Virus record (IMG/VR): IMGVR_UViG_3300006641_000098
Location: 1 to 32,305 of that record
Source: a virus
Length of the DNA: 32,305 nt
Strand: one strand, 5' to 3'
The notes below the pieces were generated by a model. The model saw only the letters and a program-made list of their open reading frames with translations, searched no databases and was not told the origin of the DNA. Below, one piece after another: positions 8,125-32,305 of the stretch (within the stretch, counting starts at the first letter, position 1; each line of letters begins with the position of its first letter). The translations under genes and the position numbers were made by a program.

Positions 8125-8916
8125 TCAGTCCTTGACCACCTGGGCGAACAGCTTTTCTACCTTTTGGCGGTACGCCGCGTCGGTCTTGTATTTGGGATCG
8201 CCCACCATCTGATAGAGCTCCTCCTTGGTCGGAGCGCCTTCCAGCGGGGTGGTTTCAATGGGCATCCTGCCCTCGTAGGTTTCGCGCAGCTTGGCAAGCA
8301 TCGTGATGCCGCGAGCCGTGCCAGCCATGATCTTGAACTCGTCCCAGTCATCCTGACCCCAGGTTCCCTTGGCGATCAGACCGCGAGCCCAGTCGGCCAT
8401 GCCGTTGACCAGTGCGCCGCCGTTCGGGCCGAGCTTCTGCATCTCGGTGGCAGCGTCCACAGTCTCGCCGCCGACCAGTTCCTTGGCCGTTTCCTGCAGC
8501 TGGCGGGACAGTTCATCGAACTGCGCTTGCGAGATCCCGGCTTCCTTTGCCCAGCCGACCAGCGTCTGCGCCATCGGGTTGTCGGCAGCGTTGTCGCCAA
8601 ACGAGCTCACATCATAGTTGCCGTCTGTCGGTGCCTTGTGCTTGCCCTGGCTGATCTGCTTGCGCAGGTCTGCCCAGCTTTTGGACATAGCCTCAAGATT
8701 GGCCTCGCCCTTGTCGGCATCCCAGAAGTTGTCAGGCAGATATTCCGGTTTGGTTTTGGGTGCGCCGGTATCGGATGCCGGTGCTGCCGGGTTCTCAGGA
8801 TTCTTGTGGTCGATAGCGACCGCATCCTTGCTTTCGGTGTTTGTATCGTCTTGCAGGTTCACGTTGTCGAGTAGGCCAGTGCCAGCACTGGGCTCGACGG
8901 CGGTGTCTGTAGTCAT
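8125..8916 (-). CDS. Capsid scaffolding protein
   Basis: This 263-residue acidic protein has a disordered N-terminus rich in Asp, Asn, Pro and Thr (residues 1-60). The segment YLPDNFWDADKGEANLEAM (about 59-77) is a common signature of podoviral scaffold proteins, and helical sequence follows. The C-terminus is Lys/Gln-rich (AYRQKVEKLFAQVVKD), where scaffolds usually carry the coat-binding helix. It sits between the portal/Bbp19 genes and the capsid gene, as expected for an assembly chaperone that is lost from the mature head. The start overlaps the upstream stop (8913). A strong terminator follows. Confidence 0.85.
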   Translation of the reverse strand: MTTDTAVEPSAGTGLLDNVNLQDDTNTESKDAVAIDHKNPENPAAPASDTGAPKTKPEYLPDNFWDADKGEANLEAMSKSWADLRKQISQGKHKAPTDGNYDVSSFGDNAADNPMAQTLVGWAKEAGISQAQFDELSRQLQETAKELVGGETVDAATEMQKLGPNGGALVNGMADWARGLIAKGTWGQDDWDEFKIMAGTARGITMLAKLRETYEGRMPIETTPLEGAPTKEELYQMVGDPKYKTDAAYRQKVEKLFAQVVKD

Positions 8917-9176
8917 AGGTTCCTTGCTTGGTTAATCCGCGCCATTAAATCCCGCACGACATTACGCTGCCCCTCGGCAAAGTAAGCGTGCGAGGAGTCC
9001 GTACCCGGCACGGCGACAGGTACGTCCACATACATTTCCTGCAGCCATTTCATCAGCGCCAGACCGTCCTCGGTGCCGAATACGCGCAGGCAAAGTCTTG
9101 CCAGATCCTCCCGCTGCTGGGTAGCAGCACGGATGTCCGGCGACTCCTCAAGTTGTTCCAGATCGTCCCAGCCCAT
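8913..9176 (-). CDS. Bbp19-like small head protein
   Basis: This 87-residue protein matches the small family named for Bordetella phage BPP-1 Bbp19. A central FGTEDGLALMKWLQEMY helix (about residues 33-49) is followed by a Tyr-Phe-Ala-Glu-Gly-Gln-Arg segment (YFAEGQRNVVRDLMARIN). The family is short, encoded beside the portal or scaffold, and has no well-defined biochemical role, though a head-assembly or virion role is likely. The ATG overlaps the portal stop as TAATG and the stop overlaps the scaffold start. The family assignment is from remembered motif shape. Confidence 0.75.
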   Translation of the reverse strand: MGWDDLEQLEESPDIRAATQQREDLARLCLRVFGTEDGLALMKWLQEMYVDVPVAVPGTDSSHAYFAEGQRNVVRDLMARINQARNL

Positions 9177-10780
9177 TACATTGCTCCTTCAGGTGCGGGC
9201 AGGGCAGCTTGCTGCTGTTGCATCATCTGGGCTTGCGCCATCGCAGCCATTGCCTGCTGCTGCTGGGCTTCTTCCTTGATGACGGCGCGTTCCTCGGCGG
9301 TGTTGCGCACCATTGCCGGGACACCCAGCTTGTCGCCCACATAATCGACCGCGACCTCGTTCTTGAGTGCCAGCTGGCCATCTGAGCCAAAAGCGCCGGA
9401 CTGCATCAGCTGCTGGTACTGGATGATTGCGTTGACCTCCTCCATGTTCTGCGCCATCGCCAGCGGTGCGACCGGCACCACCTTGACCTCAAGGCCGTTG
9501 ACGCGCAGGGGCAGCTGGATCAGGCCACGCTCGTCCATGACCTCAAGGATCTTGGCCACTAGCGGAATCATGGTTTCGTTAATCAAGCGACCGAAGGCAG
9601 AGCCCAAGTTCTGCGAGAGCTCCTTCATGCGCTCGACAATCTCGGTGGCCGAGCGTGCCGACATATTCTCAGGTGGCAGGGACTCGTCCAGCAGAATGCG
9701 CTTGATGTTGCTGCGCAGGTCGTTGATGACCAGCTGCGACACATTAAAGTCACCGGAGCGGGGCAGGGCTTGCAGGGCTGGGCCTTGCGGGCCACCGTTG
9801 CGGGCAACCGGGATGATCGCGCCAGGGATGATCTTGACCGTGTTCGGGTTCAGCACGCCATCGTCTGCTGCGGTGTACACACCAGCAACCGCAATGCTGG
9901 CGTTTTTCAGCAGCAGCTCAATGGTTTTGTTCAGCGTCTTGATGTCGGGCAGGGCAGTCATCAGCGGGCCGCGACCGTAGATCTCGCCTGCGACCTTCAT
10001 GTACCGCGAGATCACCCAGGGCGACGACTTGCGGCGGCGGTAGACAATCTCCTCTTTGCCTTCTTTCCAGATAACGTGGTAGCAGTAATCGCCGCGACCA
10101 GCGTCATAGATGGTGGCCTCGAGGAACTCAATGTCATCAGCAGGCTTGTCTGCAACCTTGCGCTTTAAGTTGGGCGACATCTTGGCATCAGGCCACTGGC
10201 GCTCGATGCTCTCGCCCTTGATCCTCATGCGGCGGTAGACGTTATCGACCTGGCCGTTCGCGCCTTCCTCGTAGCTGACCAGGAACAGCGGCACCGGCAC
10301 AAAGTTAATGGGCGACACATCGTCACCAGGCTGCACCATCATGCAGGCAGTGCCGACCGCCAGATCCAGCAGGAACTCACCAATGGCGATGTCGAAGTTG
10401 GACTGCTTCAGCACATCAAACATCTTGTCCCCGTAGGAATCCAAGATCTGCTGCAGCATGGTTTTCTTTTCAAACGGGATGGTCGGGCCAGCCTCAAGCC
10501 GCGACCACTTGCGCTGCGGAGGGAACACCACGGATTGCAGACGGTTGGCAAACCGCTGGGTCGAGTTGATGGCAGTCGAATCAAACACCCGCTGCATCTT
10601 CTTGCTGCCAGTCGCGCCACCTTCCCAGACACCATACAGCTGGCGCTGGGGCAGGGCGAACTCATAGGCATCCTGGTACAGCTGCTGAAACTCGTCCTTT
10701 TTGGTTTGCGCTGCAGCCTGGCGCTTGATGATCTCCTCGACCTTCAGACGCTTGCCGCCAAGCGGTGTCTTGTATTCCAT
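9176..10780 (-). CDS. Portal / head-to-tail connector protein
   Basis: This 534-residue protein belongs to the T7-type head-tail connector family. Visible signatures are the N-terminal stretch ending YEFALPQR, a block with INSTQRFANRLQSVVFPP (about residues 71-88), the central IYGRGPLMTALPDIKTLNK (about 269-287), and a Gln/Ala-rich C-terminal tail after residue 490 (poly-Gln and Met-rich) typical of the portal's disordered end. Twelve copies form the DNA channel, nucleate head assembly with the scaffold, and dock the terminase. It starts at an ATG one base after the stop of the small upstream gene. Confidence 0.93.
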   Translation of the reverse strand: MEYKTPLGGKRLKVEEIIKRQAAAQTKKDEFQQLYQDAYEFALPQRQLYGVWEGGATGSKKMQRVFDSTAINSTQRFANRLQSVVFPPQRKWSRLEAGPTIPFEKKTMLQQILDSYGDKMFDVLKQSNFDIAIGEFLLDLAVGTACMMVQPGDDVSPINFVPVPLFLVSYEEGANGQVDNVYRRMRIKGESIERQWPDAKMSPNLKRKVADKPADDIEFLEATIYDAGRGDYCYHVIWKEGKEEIVYRRRKSSPWVISRYMKVAGEIYGRGPLMTALPDIKTLNKTIELLLKNASIAVAGVYTAADDGVLNPNTVKIIPGAIIPVARNGGPQGPALQALPRSGDFNVSQLVINDLRSNIKRILLDESLPPENMSARSATEIVERMKELSQNLGSAFGRLINETMIPLVAKILEVMDERGLIQLPLRVNGLEVKVVPVAPLAMAQNMEEVNAIIQYQQLMQSGAFGSDGQLALKNEVAVDYVGDKLGVPAMVRNTAEERAVIKEEAQQQQAMAAMAQAQMMQQQQAALPAPEGAM

Positions 10781-18278: not shown

Positions 18279-18619
18279 TTGTCCACGATTCGCCACAGGT
18301 TGATCCCCTTTCCGCTGTTATCTGCACGCGCCTGCCGCTCCGCCTTCAGCAGGTTTCGCCTGGTCATCTTCTTGAGCACGCCGTACATCGCCTCGTAACC
18401 GACTGCATGGCCTTGCATGACCAGCTCCTCATGCAGCTGCACCGTGGTCATGGCACCAAAGTCCGTCAGGATCTCCACGATGGCCTCGCGCACCTCAGAC
18501 TTCTCCTGCTGTCCCTTGTTGTAGTGGCCAAGGCCGACGCGGATGACCTGCCTGCCTTCGGTGGCAGCGAGCTTCACTTTCTCGCCTGCCAGCTGCCTGA
18601 CGACGAGATCCCAGTTCAT
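18275..18619 (-). CDS. Winged-helix DNA-binding protein
   Basis: From ATG 18619, which overlaps the resolvase stop as ATGA, this gives 114 residues (MNWDLVVRQLAGEKVKLAAT). The helices around VREAIVEILTDFGAMTTVQL and VGYEAMYGVLKKMTRRNLLK, followed by a basic stretch and IRRIVDK-like strand, fit a winged-helix regulator with the recognition helix at about residues 80-95. It is likely a transcription regulator or replication accessory; the target is unknown. The longer start at 18751 would extend into the resolvase frame and is not supported. Confidence 0.6.
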   Translation of the reverse strand: MNWDLVVRQLAGEKVKLAATEGRQVIRVGLGHYNKGQQEKSEVREAIVEILTDFGAMTTVQLHEELVMQGHAVGYEAMYGVLKKMTRRNLLKAERQARADNSGKGINLWRIVDK

Positions 18620-18936
18620 TTGAGCTGGTCGCGCATCATTGGAATGAAATGCTCCAACCGCAGGCACACGCGCCAGGGCTGCCCATTGCGCCTGTACATC
18701 AGCACCGGCACTTCGCCGGGTGACGCGCAGCCCTCGACCTGTTCGCTCCATTTGTCCACCTGTAATCGTTCCTGACGCTTCACTTCAATGCGGAACTGGG
18801 CGACCGTCAGATCGTCTGCCCCGTCCCGCGCTTGTCCCAGGTTGCGCTTGACCACAAAACCCAAGTGCTCAGAGAGCAGGGCGGCAAGCTCACGTTCGCC
18901 AGCAGCTCCTTTGTTCCGCTTGCCCCGACCGTTCAC
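18616..18936 (-). CDS. Hjc-like Holliday junction resolvase (PDDEXK)
   Basis: This 106-residue protein has the order expected for the Hjc-type PDDEXK nucleases: E at AAGERELAALL (about residues 11-21), RNLGQARDGADDLTV with the catalytic Asp (about 31-45), and IEVKRQE (about 50-56) with the E-x-K pair. It should resolve branched DNA from recombination or replication before packaging. The position in an early operon opposite a Red-like pair fits. Its stop overlaps the next gene. Confidence 0.8.
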   Translation of the reverse strand: MNGRGKRNKGAAGERELAALLSEHLGFVVKRNLGQARDGADDLTVAQFRIEVKRQERLQVDKWSEQVEGCASPGEVPVLMYRRNGQPWRVCLRLEHFIPMMRDQLK

Positions 18937-19118
18937 GCAGACCTCAGCAGCTTGTCCAGGCGGCTTTCGGTGGTGCTGTAACGCTCCCTGAGTGCCTGGT
19001 GGACGAGCTCGTCAACGATGGATGCCCTCGAGCGGCGCTGATCCCGCGCAGCCTGGTCGAGCAGGGCGCGTGTCTCAGGGCGCAGACGCATCATGAAATG
19101 CTTGAATTCAGATCGCAT
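18933..19118 (-). CDS. Ribbon-helix-helix (Arc/MetJ-type) DNA-binding regulator
   Basis: From ATG 19118, with GGAG upstream, this 61-residue protein has the Arc-like layout: a short strand (FKHFMMRLRPETRALLDQ), then a helix-turn-helix pair ending in SRASIVDELVHQALRER. It probably represses one or both promoters of the divergent region that starts 20 bases upstream. It is first in the minus early operon and overlaps the resolvase ATG. A longer frame start at 19166 lacks an RBS and lies in the control region. Confidence 0.8.
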   Translation of the reverse strand: MRSEFKHFMMRLRPETRALLDQAARDQRRSRASIVDELVHQALRERYSTTESRLDKLLRSA

Positions 19119-19140
19119 GTCCAATCTCCAAAAGGTAGTA

Positions 19141-19219
19141 TTGCGCGACGGTATACCAAAATTCAAACGATGCCAATGGTTGCAGCATTGTTAATGTCGC
19201 GCAAAAGATACGTTTGAAT
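19141..19219. promoter_or_regulatory. Interleaved inverted repeats in the divergent control region
   Basis: Two perfect 9-base inverted pairs lie between the regulator and the recombinase. They are TTGCGCGAC (19141-19149) with GTCGCGCAA (19196-19204), and ATTCAAACG (19161-19169) with CGTTTGAAT (19211-19219). The arms alternate, A-B-A'-B', with centres near 19172 and 19190. They may be operators for the ribbon-helix-helix protein or a recombination (res/att) site for the serine recombinase next door. Confidence 0.6.
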
Positions 19220-19221
19220 GC

Positions 19222-19250
19222 TTGACAGATGTATCGGCGAGATATATTTT
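19222..19250 (+). promoter_or_regulatory. Promoter of the recombinase operon
   Basis: A perfect -35 TTGACA (19222-19227) is followed by TATATT at 19243-19248 (spacer 15) or TATTTT at 19245-19250 (spacer 17). It lies about 50 bases before the recombinase ATG, right after the second inverted repeat arm, so an occupied operator would overlap it. Confidence 0.6.
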
Positions 19251-19301
19251 TCGTCTTACGGTTATTCCCGACCGCGACCACCGAGATCCAGGAGTCGAAA
19301 C

Positions 19302-19982
19302 ATGGCACCGCACACAGGCAAATTCGTCGCCTACTACCGAGTCAGTACAGACAAACAGCAGCGCTCTGGCCTTGGCCTTGAGGCACAGCAGGAACTGGTA
19401 CGCAACTACCTCAACGGTGGTCGCTGGTCTGTCATTGGTGAATTCACCGAGATTGAGTCAGGCACTCGCAAGCGCCTCAAGAACCGTCCAATGCTCAAGG
19501 CAGCACTTGAGCTCGCCCGCAAGCAGAAAGCCACGCTGGTGGTCGCCAAGCTTGACCGCCTGGCGCGTGACGTTCAGTTCATCTCGACCTTGCTCAACGG
19601 CCAGGTCAAGTTCATCTGCGCCGACATGCCCGAAGCTGACCGCACGTTCCTTCAGATGGTCAGCGTGTTTGCAGAATACGAAGCCAAACGAATTTCCGAG
19701 CGCACCACCGAGGCATTGGCCGCATTGAAACGCCAGGGCAAAAAGCTTGGCAGCCCATCGCCCGAGATCGGCAGCGCTGAGGGCGTTAAGGTTCTCAAAG
19801 CCAACGCAGATGCTTATGCCGAACGCGTCGGCCCTATCGTGCGCGACATCATCCGCAAGACCGGTTCTGGCACCCTGCGCGAGATCGCCGCAGCACTGAC
19901 CGCTCGCGGTGTTGAAACCCCCCGCGGCAACACTGACTGGCGTGCCAGCCAGGTCAGCAACCTGCTGAAAAGGATCAAGTAA
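19302..19982 (+). CDS. Serine recombinase (resolvase/invertase family)
   Basis: From ATG 19302, with AGGAG nearby, this has 226 residues. The N-terminal catalytic domain has AYYRVSTDKQ with Arg13 and nucleophile Ser15, KLDRLARD (residues 83-90) with the conserved Arg residues, and the long helix EYEAKRISERTTEAL (about 125-139). The C-terminal part (about 175-226) is a helix-turn-helix recombinase segment containing ARGVETPRGN. Enzymes of this class cut four strands and rejoin them via phosphoserine. It is the only site-specific recombinase in the window and could integrate the genome, resolve multimers or invert DNA. The frame continues 28 codons upstream without a good start. Confidence 0.88.
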   Translation: MAPHTGKFVAYYRVSTDKQQRSGLGLEAQQELVRNYLNGGRWSVIGEFTEIESGTRKRLKNRPMLKAALELARKQKATLVVAKLDRLARDVQFISTLLNGQVKFICADMPEADRTFLQMVSVFAEYEAKRISERTTEALAALKRQGKKLGSPSPEIGSAEGVKVLKANADAYAERVGPIVRDIIRKTGSGTLREIAAALTARGVETPRGNTDWRASQVSNLLKRIK

Positions 19983-20203
19983 TGGACAAATTCATACCAG
20001 CGTTGCTGGTGCTGGCTTTCTTTGCCAGCTATTTCGGCCTGGCTTATTTGATTGGCCTCGAGTGGGCATTTGGCGTGTACTTAACCGGCCCATTTGTTGC
20101 TGTGGTTCTGCTTAGGAAAGCAGCCAAGCGCCGCCAGCAACGCATTGCAGCCGAAAAAAACAGGCTGATCGAGCAGTTTGTTGATCGAGATATTGCTGAG
20201 TGA
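19982..20203 (+). CDS. Small two-helix membrane protein
   Basis: This 73-residue protein begins MDKFIPALLVLAFFASYFGL, has a second hydrophobic helix (LEWAFGVYLTGPFVAVVLL, about 26-44), and ends in a basic/polar helix (KAAKRRQQRIAAEKNRLIEQ). Its ATG overlaps the recombinase stop as TAATG, so the two are co-translated. Function unknown; immunity, superinfection exclusion or membrane anchoring are possible. The SOS-type promoter lies at the end of this gene. Confidence 0.7.
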   Translation: MDKFIPALLVLAFFASYFGLAYLIGLEWAFGVYLTGPFVAVVLLRKAAKRRQQRIAAEKNRLIEQFVDRDIAE

Positions 20204-20209
20204 TATACT
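20181..20209 (+). promoter_or_regulatory. Promoter of the SOS-type gene
   Basis: TTGATC (20181-20186), a 17-base spacer, then TATACT (20204-20209), a good sigma70 match (-10 is 5 of 6). The -10 overlaps the LexA-type palindrome, so a bound repressor would block transcription. The promoter lies within the end of the membrane-protein gene. Confidence 0.65.
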
Positions 20210-20226
20210 GTTCTTTCATACAGTAT
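20205..20226. promoter_or_regulatory. LexA-type SOS operator
   Basis: TACTGT-N8-ACAGTA at 20206-20225, extended to ATACTG/CAGTAT at 20205-20226. The core CTGT-N8-ACAG is the consensus of LexA boxes in E. coli and other Gammaproteobacteria, also used by many Betaproteobacteria. It overlaps the -10 of the promoter just above and lies 24 bases before the next ATG. Confidence 0.8.
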
Positions 20227-20249
20227 CATTATTTTAAGGATCACCATCA

Positions 20250-20582
20250 ATGACTTACCAACCTGTTAAGCCGCTGGACGGCATGAAAGATCTGGATCGA
20301 AAAACCGTCGCCAAGTATTTCAATCGGGTTGGCCGTGGTTTGAACTGCCGTTTGGATGTGCCCATTTTGGTCATTGATGACATTAAATGGGCAGCCAAGA
20401 TCTTCGGCGAGCTCTCCAAAGACCTAACGCAGATCGCCTGGGAAGATGACCGCACCGACATTTGGCGCGTGCTCGAGGCCAGGTACGCGATGGAAGCCGC
20501 CAAGCGCGAGCTGCACCAGCGCAACGAGAAAAAGGTTGGCAAAGCAGAATACAAAAAGCTCACCAACAACCCCTACAGGTAG
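20250..20582 (+). CDS. SOS-operator-controlled protein of unknown function
   Basis: This 110-residue protein begins MTYQPVKPLDGMKDLDRKTV and is polar and mostly helical, with a central VPILVIDDIKWAAKIFGELS (about 37-56) and a basic C-terminal half (AKRELHQRNEKKVGKAEYKK). I recognise no family and see no signal peptide, membrane helix or enzyme motif. A ribosome site AAGGA precedes the ATG. A LexA-type box overlaps its promoter and a terminator follows 5 bases after the stop, making it a one-gene transcriptional unit. By analogy with damage-induced phage genes it may act in induction, host division control or DNA repair; this is inference. Confidence 0.7.
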   Translation: MTYQPVKPLDGMKDLDRKTVAKYFNRVGRGLNCRLDVPILVIDDIKWAAKIFGELSKDLTQIAWEDDRTDIWRVLEARYAMEAAKRELHQRNEKKVGKAEYKKLTNNPYR

Positions 20583-20587
20583 TAGCT

Positions 20588-20615
20588 CAAACGGAAATAC
20601 CCGTTTGGATTTTTA
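20588..20615 (+). terminator. Terminator of the SOS-type unit
   Basis: A 7-bp perfect stem CAAACGG (20588-20594) / CCGTTTG (20601-20607) with a 6-base loop is followed by GATTTTTAT. It lies just after the stop of the SOS-controlled gene and before the hairpin-repeat ORF. Confidence 0.8.
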
Positions 20616-20651
20616 TAACTAGCAGCAAGTCCTTGTCGAAGGAGGAAAACA

Positions 20652-20873
20652 TTGAAAAAACATAAGCAAACATGCGGCGTTTCCCGCGCATATGTGTATT
20701 GCGGTTATTTGAACCGCAACAACTATATAGCGGGTATTTCGCATAATTTGTATTCCGGTTATTTGACCGGCATACACAAGATTCTTGCACCGCAGCAAGA
20801 CCCTGATACCCCTGTTTTGATTGTCAGCGCCGTCGGCATTTTGGCCGTCATTGCCCTGGCGATCCTTACCTGA
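20652..20873 (+). CDS. Repeat-containing small membrane protein
   Basis: A 73-residue ORF starting at TTG 20652 with a strong GGAGG six to seven bases upstream. Residues 7-43 contain short repeats with a G-[VYI]-[SL] core (TCGVSR, YCGYLN, IAGISH, YSGYLT; spacing 9, 10, 8), then a Pro/Gln linker and a C-terminal membrane helix (VLIVSAVGILAVIALAIL). The repeats are encoded by DNA hairpins (see repeat entry). The N-terminal part is rich in Tyr, Asn, Gly and Cys. I know no family; the ORF may encode a structural protein or be selected for RNA structure. No ATG start exists near the RBS. Confidence 0.5.
   Translation: MKKHKQTCGVSRAYVYCGYLNRNNYIAGISHNLYSGYLTGIHKILAPQQDPDTPVLIVSAVGILAVIALAILT
20674..20770. 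repeat. Array of four similar hairpins
   Basis: Hairpins are spaced at about 27 bases: GCGG/CCGC at 20674-20687; TTGCGGTT/AACCGCAA around loop ATTTG at 20699-20719 (8-bp perfect stem); weak GCG/CGC with loop GGTATTT at 20730-20742; and CCGGT/ACCGG with loop TATTTG at 20755-20770. Loop sequences share (G/A)TTT, and copies two and four share TGTATT-n-CGGTTATTTGA. The array lies in the coding region of the small ORF. Confidence 0.65.
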
Positions 20874-20885
20874 CGGGGGTTCAAC

Positions 20886-21182
20886 ATGCTCCCCGTTACC
20901 GGTCGCGATCTACGCGATGCGCAACTTGCGCTTTTTGAGCACAGAGACACAGAGTTTCTGTGCCACTGCCGAGCACTAGCCGTTGAGATAGCTCGAACAC
21001 AAGGCACTGTGTGCATCAATGACATAAGAGCACAGCTGCGCTTGCCCGCTGAGTTGCACCCGTCTGTCCTGGGTGCCGTTTTCCGTTCAAAAAAATTTAA
21101 GCCGGTTGGCTTTACTGAAGCCACCCACAAGGCTGCGCACGCCCGCGTGGTACGCGTCTATCAACTATCTGAGGAGTCCTGA
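20886..21182 (+). CDS. Small phage protein in the recombination operon
   Basis: This 98-residue protein begins MLPVTGRDLRDAQLALFEHR and ends AAHARVVRVYQLSEES. Alternating helices and the GTVCINDIRAQLRL segment suggest a winged-helix-like fold, possibly DNA-binding. The RBS-like GGGGG lies before the ATG. It is directly upstream of the exonuclease, and similar small proteins often precede recombination genes in phages. Function unknown. Confidence 0.65.
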   Translation: MLPVTGRDLRDAQLALFEHRDTEFLCHCRALAVEIARTQGTVCINDIRAQLRLPAELHPSVLGAVFRSKKFKPVGFTEATHKAAHARVVRVYQLSEES

Positions 21183-21184
21183 TC

Positions 21185-22138
21185 ATGGCAGGTAAAAAAA
21201 CACCCGATGACATCATGTCTGCATCCCGACTGCCCGCGCTGCTGGGTCTGTCGCGGTATGCCACGCCGAACGACGAGCTCGCATACAGCATCAACGCCAT
21301 CAAAGGCAACGAGCGCGAGGACAAGTCCAACGAATCCATGCGCTGGGGCGACAGACTTGAGGCACTGATCCTGAAGGAAGCAGCCGAGCGCCTGCAGCTG
21401 TCCGAGCTGGCAACTGAGTTCAGCGCCGCTTTCTACCACCCGACCCTGCCGCTGTGCTGCAGCCTGGATGGTTACGCAGACGGACGCGGGCAGATTATCC
21501 GCACCGACGAGGACGCAGGCATCTACGTCATTGGTGCCGAGCAGATCGAGCTCGCAGGCCACGGCGTGCTGGAAGCGAAGCTGACAGCTGTGTCGCCTGA
21601 GGAAATCCCTGCTTTGTACCGCGGCCCCGTCCAACTGCAGGCACAGATGGACATTATGTCTGCCAAGTGGGGAGCAGTCTGCGTGCTGTACCAGGGCACG
21701 GCGCTGCGCATCTTCCTGTTTGAGCCGCACGCCCAGACGCTGGCCACCATCAAAGCTGCGGTGCTGGAGTTCCAGGACAAGCTGGAGCGGTTCCGCGCTG
21801 ACGGCACGATTGATTACTACCCGCCAGCAACCAGCGAGGACGCTGATCGGTTGTGGCCAGCAGCTGAAGATAAGGTTGTGCAGCTCGACACTGAGGCTGA
21901 ATTACTGGCCGAAAAAATTGCAACAGCAAAAGCCACAATCACCAAGGCCGCAAAGGATTGCGCGGATGCAGAAAAGGATCTGAAAGCATTGCTTGGCACC
22001 GCCAGCAAAGGCATTGCAGGCCGGTTTGAGATCCGCTGGCCGATGCGTAATTACCAGGCGCAGCCCGCAAAGACAGTGCCTGCAAAGGCCGCGTACACAA
22101 TCCGGCAGTCCACTCTCAGCGTGAAGGAACTGGCATGA
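21185..22138 (+). CDS. YqaJ-family 5'-3' exonuclease
   Basis: This 317-residue protein carries the lambda Exo/YqaJ nuclease pattern. RYATPNDELAY (about 24-34) is followed by WGDRLEALIL (E59), CSLDGYADG (D95), LEAKLT (E130 and K132) and the Gln-rich VQLQAQMDIM (about 149-158). The C-terminal third is a helical coiled-coil (about 225-275) of the kind seen in phage YqaJ proteins. It should digest one strand of dsDNA to leave 3' overhangs for the RecT protein encoded just downstream. A GAGGAG ribosome site precedes the ATG. Confidence 0.9.
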   Translation: MAGKKTPDDIMSASRLPALLGLSRYATPNDELAYSINAIKGNEREDKSNESMRWGDRLEALILKEAAERLQLSELATEFSAAFYHPTLPLCCSLDGYADGRGQIIRTDEDAGIYVIGAEQIELAGHGVLEAKLTAVSPEEIPALYRGPVQLQAQMDIMSAKWGAVCVLYQGTALRIFLFEPHAQTLATIKAAVLEFQDKLERFRADGTIDYYPPATSEDADRLWPAAEDKVVQLDTEAELLAEKIATAKATITKAAKDCADAEKDLKALLGTASKGIAGRFEIRWPMRNYQAQPAKTVPAKAAYTIRQSTLSVKELA

Positions 22139-22320
22139 AAAGCCTGGACCTGCGACCGCTGGAGCTCGCCCACGCCCGCGCCGTCAATGCACTGATGGGC
22201 AACATCCCGAAGCTGTCCAACGATGATGCGTGCGAAATCATTGAGGCAATGATGGCCGTCGTTTTTGAAACGCTCAAACAATACGCACAGGAGGAAGATG
22301 ATGCAGCTGACTACAACTAA
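22135..22320 (+). CDS. Small protein between exonuclease and RecT
   Basis: A 61-residue acidic helical protein (MKSLDLRPLELAHARAVNAL) with a stretch DDACEIIEAMMAVVFETLKQ. The ATG overlaps the exonuclease stop as ATGA; its tail overlaps the RecT start region by 20 bases. Function unknown, probably co-expressed with recombination. Confidence 0.65.
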   Translation: MKSLDLRPLELAHARAVNALMGNIPKLSNDDACEIIEAMMAVVFETLKQYAQEEDDAADYN

Positions 22321-23335
22321 TCGCCAAGGCTTTGCCCCGACCACGCTAGGTGAAGCGATGGACTTCAGCCACATGCTGGCCAAGTCCCAGATGGTGCCGA
22401 AGCAGTACCAGGGCAAGCCGGAGGACATCATGGTTGCAGTTCAATGGGGATATGAAATTGGTTTGCAGCCCATGCAGGCGCTGCAAAACATCAGCGTCAT
22501 AAACGGCAAGCCCAGCGTATACGGTGACGCAGCGATGGCGCTGGTGCAGGCCAGCCCGGTCTGCGAGGGCGTGGACGAGAGCATGGAAGGCGAAGGCACA
22601 CCGAACCCGGTCGCCGTCTGCATCGCTAGGCGCAAAGGGCGCAACCCGGTGATCGTCCGTTTCAGTGTTGAAGATGCAAAGCGGGCAGGGCTGTGGGGCA
22701 AGCAGGGGCCGTGGCAGGCGTACCCGAAGCGGATGCTGCAGATGCGAGCTCGTGGCTTTGCCCTGCGTGATGCCTTTCCTGATGTGCTCAAAGGGCTGAT
22801 TACCGCGGAGGAGGCGCAGGATTACCCAGACGAGTCAAAGCCCAGGCCAATCAAGGATGTCACGCCCATGCCAGCCAACCCGCTGGATGTGATCGCGCCG
22901 CCCAGCCTGCCGGAGCCTGAACCTGAGCCGGTCGAGGCAGTGACAGTTGACGAGTATGTGCCAGACCTGGACGAATCAGATTTGCAGAACGATTCTGCAG
23001 AATCTGCAGAACCTGCTGCAGAACTCGATGTGATAGACGGCGTGCCGATCATGGTGCCTGGCAAGGCCGAGCCGCACGCAGTGTTCGCCAGCCTGGATGA
23101 CTGGGCAGCTGCGCTGGAAGATCTGTTTGACAAGACTGCCAGGGCAGGCAAGCGCCCGGTGCGCGAGCGCATGACCATCCTGAAGGAGTTGCGCCAACTG
23201 AACGAGGAAAATCTGCAGCGGGTCGAGCTCACCAAAAAGACGGCACTGATCTCGATGTACGGCAGGCGTATCAGGGCGCTGGGTGCGCAGCTGACCGAGG
23301 AGGAAAAGGAAGCGGAGAAAAAAACCCCGGCCTAA
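22301..23335 (+). CDS. RecT/Bet-type single-strand annealing protein
   Basis: Start at ATG 22301, with AGGAGG six bases upstream (22298 would leave only three), gives 344 residues. The core has VQWGYEIGLQPMQALQNISV (about 47-66) and WQAYPKRMLQMRARGFALRD (about 138-157), typical of the RecT family used with YqaJ exonucleases. An acidic Glu/Pro-rich linker (about 195-255) and a C-terminal helical tail follow; the tail probably binds partners. The protein anneals complementary ssDNA for concatemer formation. Stop and terminator hairpin coincide with the end of the opposite lysis operon. Confidence 0.88.
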   Translation: MQLTTTNRQGFAPTTLGEAMDFSHMLAKSQMVPKQYQGKPEDIMVAVQWGYEIGLQPMQALQNISVINGKPSVYGDAAMALVQASPVCEGVDESMEGEGTPNPVAVCIARRKGRNPVIVRFSVEDAKRAGLWGKQGPWQAYPKRMLQMRARGFALRDAFPDVLKGLITAEEAQDYPDESKPRPIKDVTPMPANPLDVIAPPSLPEPEPEPVEAVTVDEYVPDLDESDLQNDSAESAEPAAELDVIDGVPIMVPGKAEPHAVFASLDDWAAALEDLFDKTARAGKRPVRERMTILKELRQLNEENLQRVELTKKTALISMYGRRIRALGAQLTEEEKEAEKKTPA

Positions 23336-30986: not shown

Positions 30987-32305
30987 TCATCGCGCCTTGT
31001 AATAGAGTCCGTTTGCTTTCCGAAGCTCCTCAAGCTCAGCCAGCTTGGCCTGCAGCTCAGGATTGCGCGAGATCAACAGGTCTTTTGCTCCAACAATCCC
31101 TTTTTCTTTGTCTCCATTCATTAACAAAGAATGCACTCGCTGCACCGTCTTTTGCTGGTCATCCAGATTTAGCATGTCAAAACCAGGCGCTTGTATCACA
31201 TCAAGAATTGCTTGTTTGGCATTAAGCTCTTTGCCGTAAATAGTCAGCAATTCGTTGTATTGCGGGTCTGACAATTCAACGCCGTTCAGCTTCTTGTCAG
31301 GCATACCGACGGGGCCACCCAGTCTGGCAAGCGCATCGTCCACTTCGCTGAACTGCTGCGGGCTGACGCGGGTCGGATTGACCCAGCTGGAGAACCGCAC
31401 CCAGGGATTCTTGCTGGGAATCTGCTGCTTCGGGTCGCCCCATAGGTTAAGCTCGTCTGGCAGGTCATCGTTGTACGCAGGGATGCGGCTGCGGTATTTG
31501 TTGAAGCCCTCGACAAAACCGCGCACGCCCATCGGCAGGTCAGGGCTGGCGCGAGTGCCTTTGGCGGTCGGGTCGTACATGCGCTCAATCGCTCCGACCA
31601 GGGAGCCATACGCGCCAATGGGCGAGCCGCCAATAACGAAGCCGCTGAACTGCTTGGTCAGATCGTTGACAGCTTTGACGGCATCCGGCGTTTGACCGGC
31701 GCGTGACAGCCCAAGCGCCTTGGCGATTTCGCCAATACCCTGCAGATAGGGCTGCTCCTTCAGGTACTCATACATGCCGAACAGCGCACCCATGAATACT
31801 TCCTCGACCTTGCCCTGGTCAGGCTGGTACATGCCGTACTCAGCATAGTCAGCTGCAATGGCCATCAGCGCCGAGACAGGTTCCATGCCTTGGTAGCTGT
31901 AGTAAGTGTCGCCAATCTTCAGGCTGTACGGTTGCCAACCATCGCGCATTAGCGCCTCGCGGTGCTCCTTGCGGGTCGGGCCGCTGCCGGTGATTGATCC
32001 GCTTGCAGCCTCATGCGCTAGGTACCCAAGGATCGCAGAGCCCATCGACACCTTCGCCAGCGCCATGTCCCGGTGGATGCCACCCTTTGCCATGTCGTCG
32101 CGGAAGCGGGACGAGAGCGGGGCAAACGGCGTGCGCTCGACAACCTCCAGCCCGATGTTGGCCGGGGTCTTGAAGAAAGGCACCACGACCTTCAGCGGCC
32201 CCCAGTTGAACACTCGCTGCAGCTGCTCAAGGGCAGGGGGCAGGTCAGCGGTGAACGTGCCGCGTTTGGCAAACTCCATCGCCGCCTCGTCCAGATCCGC
32301 TGGCG
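30987..32305 (-). CDS. Giant virion/polyvalent protein, C-terminal part (enters from right edge)
   Basis: The frame is open past the first Met (32279) up to the right edge, so the true N-terminus lies outside. Residues after 32279 contain LKVVVPFFKTPANIGLEVVE (about 31-50) and ERTPFAPLSSR, then a hydrophobic segment (VSMGSAILGYLAHEA), matching the LPD38-type C-terminal region of large polyvalent proteins of podoviruses. The gene ends 33 bases before the tail fibre. Position and type suggest it is the end of the protein whose start is at 1716, with an internal piece missing. The role would be as an ejected core protein. Confidence 0.75.
   Translation of the reverse strand, partial: PADLDEAAMEFAKRGTFTADLPPALEQLQRVFNWGPLKVVVPFFKTPANIGLEVVERTPFAPLSSRFRDDMAKGGIHRDMALAKVSMGSAILGYLAHEAASGSITGSGPTRKEHREALMRDGWQPYSLKIGDTYYSYQGMEPVSALMAIAADYAEYGMYQPDQGKVEEVFMGALFGMYEYLKEQPYLQGIGEIAKALGLSRAGQTPDAVKAVNDLTKQFSGFVIGGSPIGAYGSLVGAIERMYDPTAKGTRASPDLPMGVRGFVEGFNKYRSRIPAYNDDLPDELNLWGDPKQQIPSKNPWVRFSSWVNPTRVSPQQFSEVDDALARLGGPVGMPDKKLNGVELSDPQYNELLTIYGKELNAKQAILDVIQAPGFDMLNLDDQQKTVQRVHSLLMNGDKEKGIVGAKDLLISRNPELQAKLAELEELRKANGLYYKAR

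Follow-up and report, generated by a model that had tools for sequence, protein, structure and literature searches.

Tum of coliphage 186 is a LexA-controlled antirepressor. The GfoA and GfhA proteins of the Gifsy prophages are described as antirepressors under the same control in the cited part of PMC3121763, and the cited part of PMC6182141 describes GIL01 of Bacillus thuringiensis as a phage that does not integrate and that employs host LexA at its promoters. CtrA sites in phages of Alphaproteobacteria have been discussed under the name "lytic deferment" (PMC9437464, in the part cited). As far as the cited parts of these papers go, phage genes controlled by host LexA are mostly induction devices of temperate phages. 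The LexA operator reported for most beta- and gamma-Proteobacteria is CTGT-N8-ACAG (PMC3323433), by the cited part of that paper, and the reference list of PMC8565304 includes work on a noncanonical LexA motif of some Betaproteobacteria.

Here, we analyze a virus record of 32,305 bases, classed as linear, the whole of which we call the window. It carries a LexA-type box in front of a gene for a 110-residue protein, ORF110. Like Tum, and like GfoA and GfhA as described in the part cited, ORF110 is a small phage protein behind a LexA-repressed promoter (here a predicted one) and outside any immunity region. It differs from them in that no repressor partner was recognized, in that its gene stands among recombination genes, and in that its distant relatives lack the box. 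GIL01, by the cited account, resembles this phage in being non-integrating and in having host LexA at its promoters (again, predicted here), but it has a host of another phylum and another LexA motif, and it places early and late operons under control rather than one gene. No relationship was established between ORF110 and GIL01 gp7 or gp6. In the phages with CtrA sites, as described, a host master regulator likewise times uncharacterized phage genes, although the regulator and the hosts differ. By analogy, the ORF110 case would work at the promoter level as these known host-regulator phages do. The nearest named phage, MEP301 (MW452941; terminase 74.5% identical), infects a Methylophilales bacterium and has the same layout, with leftward structural genes and a rightward recombinase and YqaJ exonuclease. 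However, its recombinase is only 32% identical, and tblastn at E ≤ 1 found no ORF110 relative in it.

Results

Operator, predicted promoter, and terminator in the window

The operator, TACTGT-N8-ACAGTA (TACTGTTCTTTCATACAGTA; positions 20206 to 20225, plus strand), matches at all 12 half-site positions, and no other site in the window comes within two mismatches. An exact 12/12 match is expected 0.0003 times per window and occurred in 0 of 300 simulated windows, while looser LexA-like sites are frequent (a site with ≤2 mismatches in 33 of 100 shuffles). The box begins 44 bases ahead of the ATG of ORF110 (20250 to 20582, plus strand), and the box overlaps the RNA polymerase site at TATACT, the -10 of the predicted promoter, which has a TG upstream. 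The earlier note had placed a LexA-type box over the -10 at exactly this position and a 110-residue frame at 20250 behind it, and both placements hold.

The same note had proposed a sigma70 promoter with 17-base spacing. The arrangement TTGATC-17-TATACT is indeed present at 20181 to 20209, but the -35-like hexamer TTGATC (20181 to 20186, plus strand; -69 to -64) is poorly conserved, each position agreeing in only 12 to 18 of 23 distinct upstream sequences, whereas GTGATATA is invariant among them. An extended -10 promoter is therefore likelier than a -35/-10 pair. On the same grounds we rejected TTGATC as an essential -35; it is probably dispensable. In the extended -10 element itself (TGATATACT; 20201 to 20209, plus strand), the TG, the TATA, and the last T are found in 23/23 distinct sequences and the C in 20/23. 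An ATATT block (20190 to 20194, plus strand; -60 to -56, 10 bases before the -10), in which we recognized no known promoter element, is likewise present in 23/23, as is the ribosome binding site AAGGAT (20236 to 20241, plus strand), which belongs to an invariant TAAGGAT.

An intrinsic terminator follows the gene (20587 to 20614, plus strand), with an 8-pair stem at 20587 to 20608 and then a T run that begins ATTTTT. The description of this terminator as perfect applies to 7 of the 8 pairs, since the last is G-T. Among 23 of the 27 box-bearing sequences described below (L006, L013, L024, and L026 were left out, and 3 boxless loci were added to the comparison), the stem folds in 17, is altered in 4 (L014 and L019 to L021), and is missing in 2 (L023 and L025).

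Conservation of the box among close relatives

Scanning IMG/VR with ORF110 gave 31 loci, 29 of them with upstream DNA; L030 and L031, in which the gene is cut by a contig end, were excluded from the upstream comparison. The earlier note had suggested looking in related phages for the box and the gene together, and 26 of the 29 relatives have the dyad, always at exactly -44. All 26 are at least 80% identical to the window protein, and the dyad is missing from L027 to L029, the most distant of the 29 (67 to 70% identity). With the window included, these 27 sequences contain 18 distinct boxes, of which the form CTGT-N8-ACAG is found in 16/27 sequences and CTG-N10-CAG in 23/27. The right half, ACAGTA, overlaps neither the -10 nor the ribosome site; at every one of its columns, 21 to 23 of the 23 distinct upstream sequences agree, and the spacer of the box is variable among them. 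In the seven pairs compared, dS is 0.64 to 1.46 and dN is 0.05 to 0.16. The silent sites of the ORF110 gene are near saturation, and with such dS values the conserved dyad is not the result of recent copying. Among 299,716 bases of box-bearing loci, there are just two further sites with ≤2 mismatches, about 7.6 to 7.9 kb away.

Four of the 27 sequences break CTG-N10-CAG. L015 and L022 both read TAGTG-N10-CACTA, so that the half-sites are altered symmetrically and in step; in L011 the left half alone has changed, and L016 reads CTTA. The tree gives no order for the changes in L011, L015, and L022. Two other variant left halves, CTGA and CTGG, are also found in sites upstream of E. coli uvrA/ssb and uvrB, which we take to be LexA operators. 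The same site search did not recover the E. coli uvrD operator (best, 5 mismatches).

The commonest box form in the clade is the E. coli LexA consensus, and the window contains an exact match to CTGT-N8-ACAG, the operator of the beta/gamma-proteobacterial type of LexA regulon. From the placement of the box, the earlier note had concluded that host LexA is in control. Conservation of the box speaks for this; against it, the four sequences just described depart from CTG-N10-CAG and fall outside the LexA consensus. We regard host LexA control of the ORF110 promoter as the best reading and as quite likely.

A search for GTGATATACTG-N10-CAGTA returned 29 stretches, of which 20 are known ORF110 contigs and nine are others. 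SRAP is a known SOS associate, and in L098, an unrelated viral contig, the string adjoins a divergent SRAP gene (E = 5e-33). This is the one SOS-linked neighbor recognized among the nine contigs (1/9); L086 and L104 share one stretch, and some of the nine look like chance matches. The promoter-operator string of L098 lies within positions 8540 to 9293, where the gene on the side away from SRAP has no Pfam match; by eye, its protein resembles one beside a similar box in L102.

Distant loci that have the gene but lack the box

Wider IMG/VR scans reached ORF110 relatives down to 46% identity to the window protein. No box was found in the 250 bases upstream of the ORF110 homologue (226 bases for L046 and 110 bases for L049) in 27 of 27 distant loci, the best sites having 4 to 6 mismatches of 12. 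Scanning 22 of these loci over their whole length (near-duplicates L041, L046, L059, L060, and L064 were left out) gave eight weak or core-only sites, none of them upstream of ORF110. In L037, L038, and L040 to L042, the ORF110 homologue overlaps the recombinase stop codon.

The gene order is nevertheless kept. In L001 to L051, ORF110 comes after the recombinase and before ORF98, the exonuclease, and RecT in every contig long enough to include these genes, and the order agrees in nine further loci checked from L054 to L083, with ORF98 undetected in L082 and L083. Because all 27 distant loci are boxless yet keep the gene between the recombinase and the exonuclease and RecT genes, we conclude that the gene predates the box, and thus that SOS control was superimposed later, in one clade, and does not explain why the gene exists. 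L063 and L064 provide a natural swap that supports this view: their RHH and nuclease proteins are 98% and 99% identical to those of the window, while their ORF110 is 62% identical and has no box. These two are mosaic phages, in which the leftward operon is for the most part that of the window and ORF110 is divergent. Within the boxed clade, median identity is 90.0% for ORF110 (a figure inflated by retrieval of the loci with ORF110 itself), 90.1% for terL, 88.2% for ORF98, and 85.5% for the recombinase, compared with 56.1% for RHH and 39.7% for the replication protein.

In eight distant loci, the serine recombinase gene carries a tract of 12 to 18 G at its 3' end, immediately ahead of the ORF110 homologue (L043:2590, L044:2296, L045:9881, L046:116, L047:2388, L049:6, L050:5766, and L051:5456). 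No other G runs of at least 9 were found in the loci examined for them. In the L044 to L047 group, G counts that are multiples of three are followed by an early end of the protein, and in L047, with 13 G, the frame continues into a different C terminus. Phase variation is possible.

Gene neighborhood of ORF110

ORF110 lies in a rightward gene block, flanked on both sides by leftward genes, in the order recombinase, small ORF, ORF110, ORF73, ORF98, exonuclease, and RecT-type gene. The serine recombinase frame (19218 to 19982, plus strand; PF00239 and partial PF07508), upstream of ORF110, probably has its true start at 19302 and has a promoter-like site of its own at 19222 to 19250. The small rightward ORF (19982 to 20203) is between it and ORF110. 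The downstream recombination set (20886 to 23335, plus strand) consists of ORF98, a YqaJ/RecE-type exonuclease (21185 to 22138, plus strand), ORF61, and a RecT-type annealing protein (22265 to 23335, plus strand).

On the other side, an Arc-like RHH gene (18933 to 19166, leftward) is the first of an operon running away from the recombinase. It encodes the only repressor candidate seen, in a record that may be incomplete. The statement that the phage has no other visible induction genes was a fair one, subject to the presence of this RHH gene at the head of the opposite operon. After it comes a leftward PDDEXK-type nuclease gene (18616 to 18936; PF24608, E = 1e-10; RusA-like PHROG), whose product is about 88% conserved within the boxed clade. 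The two ends of the record, 1 to 1737 and 30987 to 32303, are each inside a long leftward open frame, and a circular or permuted genome may therefore have been opened within one gene.

Downstream of the unit, inside ORF73, positions 20660 to 20800 are conserved at the DNA level in 12/12 aligned sequences, with CGCATAATTTGTATTC, for example, invariant and with two similar halves. The stretch folds well in the window (z = -4.4) but shows little covariation, and Rfam gave no match within 19000 to 21500. It is perhaps a DNA site (an origin or res site) or an RNA element.

The ORF110 protein

ORF110 is a basic, helical protein of an orphan family. Its pI is 9.4 to 9.8 in the eight members computed, and the residues invariant in 30/30 members include R17, R26, R34, R68, R73, R78, K46, W47, and C33. 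The earlier note had assigned it to no known family, and profile and fold searches bear this out, PHROGs, Pfam, NCBIfam, and PADLOC yielding nothing convincing. The weak hits, none of which led further, are Pfam DUF188 (YaiI/YqxD; 3/30 members, best E = 0.0018), Dmd (2/30, best E = 0.0063), and AD (anticodon-binding; 4/30, best E = 0.067); NCBIfam YaiI/YqxD (1/27, E = 0.024) and TrmB (7/27, best E = 0.074); phrog_8340 of PHROGs, of unknown function (2/27, best E = 0.01); and PADLOC GajA (E = 0.014 over 33 residues, in the window protein only of 3 scanned). Searches of named phages and plasmids found no relative, a single named-phage match at E = 0.2 being unconvincing. Pattern scans of 84,980 genomes also found none, and so give no sign of prophages. 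A literature search found no paper on the gene or its unit.

Among solved structures searched with the ORF110 sequence, the best match was sc-apCC-4 (E = 0.072). The mean pLDDT was 53.4 for a first fold model and 68.8 for a second, in which residues 27 to 37 are under 50. The second model predicts a helical hairpin (residues 42 to 65 and 70 to 91; block pLDDT of about 80 to 93) and is poor in the N-terminal half. In the PDB, the best fold match had an E value of 1.8 and, on a second look, a Z score of 6.8, which the tool's note calls ordinary for helical hairpins. In BFVD, rank 1 is the uncharacterized protein A0A6J5M475 (E = 0.002, 30% identity). These fold searches gave no relative with known function, which does not show that the modeled fold is new. 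An Acb2/Tad1 sponge, suggested by two weak Foldseek matches (E = 2.5 and 2.6), was rejected. PF24729 has no match in the window at E ≤ 10, nor among the families of the 30 members, while the positive control, T4 Vs.4 against PF24729, gave 7e-20. Aligning ORF110 with 13 T4-type Vs.4 proteins by hhalign gave 0.9% over 11 columns.

Discussion

We propose that ORF110 forms an SOS-inducible, one-gene unit repressed by host LexA, and that its product is a helper in recombination, repair, or replication restart. Bound to TACTGT-N8-ACAGTA, a LexA dimer would cover the -10 and the start point of the extended -10 promoter. DNA damage, fork trouble, or single-stranded DNA during infection would activate RecA, LexA would be cleaved, and ORF110 would be made from a message that stops at the terminator. 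Because of this terminator, and since the recombinase has its own promoter-like site, ORF110 would rise alone. It would then assist the phage recombination set in DNA recombination, repair, or replication restart, under an SOS control that one clade may have added to an older gene. The operator, promoter, gene, and terminator are read from the sequence and its conservation, whereas we infer that LexA binds and that damage induces the unit. We place ORF110 with the recombination set on the basis of the order recombinase, ORF110, ORF98, exonuclease, and RecT, although gene order alone does not prove function. We consider the whole explanation moderately probable, while the recombination-accessory function, taken alone, is a tentative assignment.

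A chance palindrome without function is vanishingly improbable. Loose LexA-like sites do occur often in shuffled sequence, but an exact match is rarely expected, and 26 of 29 relatives with the dyad at the same offset tell strongly against chance. It is unlikely, though far less so, that a phage regulator, either ORF110 as autorepressor or an unseen protein, uses the palindrome as its operator, with a preference for TACTG-N10-CAGTA and a specificity that drifts among members of the clade. The symmetrical TAGTG/CACTA boxes of L015 and L022, with L011 as a possible intermediate, are what a coevolving dimer would leave, and since any dimer of shifted specificity would leave such a pattern, either a phage regulator or a variant of host LexA could account for it. 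A single site per genome would suit autoregulation, and the box accompanies only close variants of ORF110. However, the commonest box form is the exact LexA consensus, the tree leaves the order of the changes undecided, and ORF110 matches no DNA-binding family, with the proviso that its N-terminal half is poorly modeled. The RHH protein is an unlikely binder, being nearly unchanged in the boxless L063 and L064 and only about 56% identical in boxed relatives. That it tracks with neither ORF110 nor the box speaks against it both as the regulator of the box and as the target of an antirepressor.

In another reading, the SOS response would induce ORF110 as an antirepressor or switch, which would rouse the phage from a dormant state as Tum or GfoA does. 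A LexA-type box before a small, stand-alone phage gene outside any immunity region fits such a role, and the antirepressors already known are controlled by LexA directly (PMC3121763, in the part cited). The profile searches in Pfam, PHROGs, and NCBIfam gave no convincing match that would place ORF110 among known antirepressors. Against this reading, no CI-like repressor was recognized among the proteins scanned, and RHH, the sole candidate partner, was disfavored above. In addition, the gene is boxless in the distant loci, overlaps the recombinase stop in five of them, and has no relative in the genomes covered by the pattern scans. The boxless loci, together with the kept gene order, favor an accessory recombination or replication protein over a dedicated antirepressor, and the antirepressor or state-switch role suggested in the earlier note is not favored here; we judge it slightly less likely still than a phage regulator. 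A role for ORF110 as a modulator of repair or of division, also suggested there, is possible. More broadly, ORF110 might act on the host, by modulating LexA or RecA (as GIL01 gp7 acts on LexA), by affecting cell division, or by counter-defense. Predicted damage-linked expression and a small, basic protein would suit this, and GIL01 offers a precedent (PMC6182141, in the part cited), but the constant position within the recombination set does not, and neither do the defense searches, in which PADLOC gave nothing beyond the short GajA match and Acb2/Tad1 found no support. We consider action on the host improbable.

Under the proposal of a LexA-repressed recombination helper, a LexA-type box fronts an old, highly conserved gene of a recombination cluster in an environmental lineage for which no prophage was found, and ORF110 represents a 110-residue orphan family with clear, testable regulation. 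L063 and L064, set against the window, provide a natural comparison without and with the box. A more far-reaching account, which we hold to be somewhat unlikely, is that a phage lineage without a recognizable lysogeny module put a recombination gene under host LexA, that it reads damage in order to tune recombination and repair rather than for prophage induction, and that the operator half-site later shifted with host LexA in part of the clade. If this is true, a non-integrating phage, whether virulent or episomal, would tune its own recombination and repair by the DNA damage of its host.
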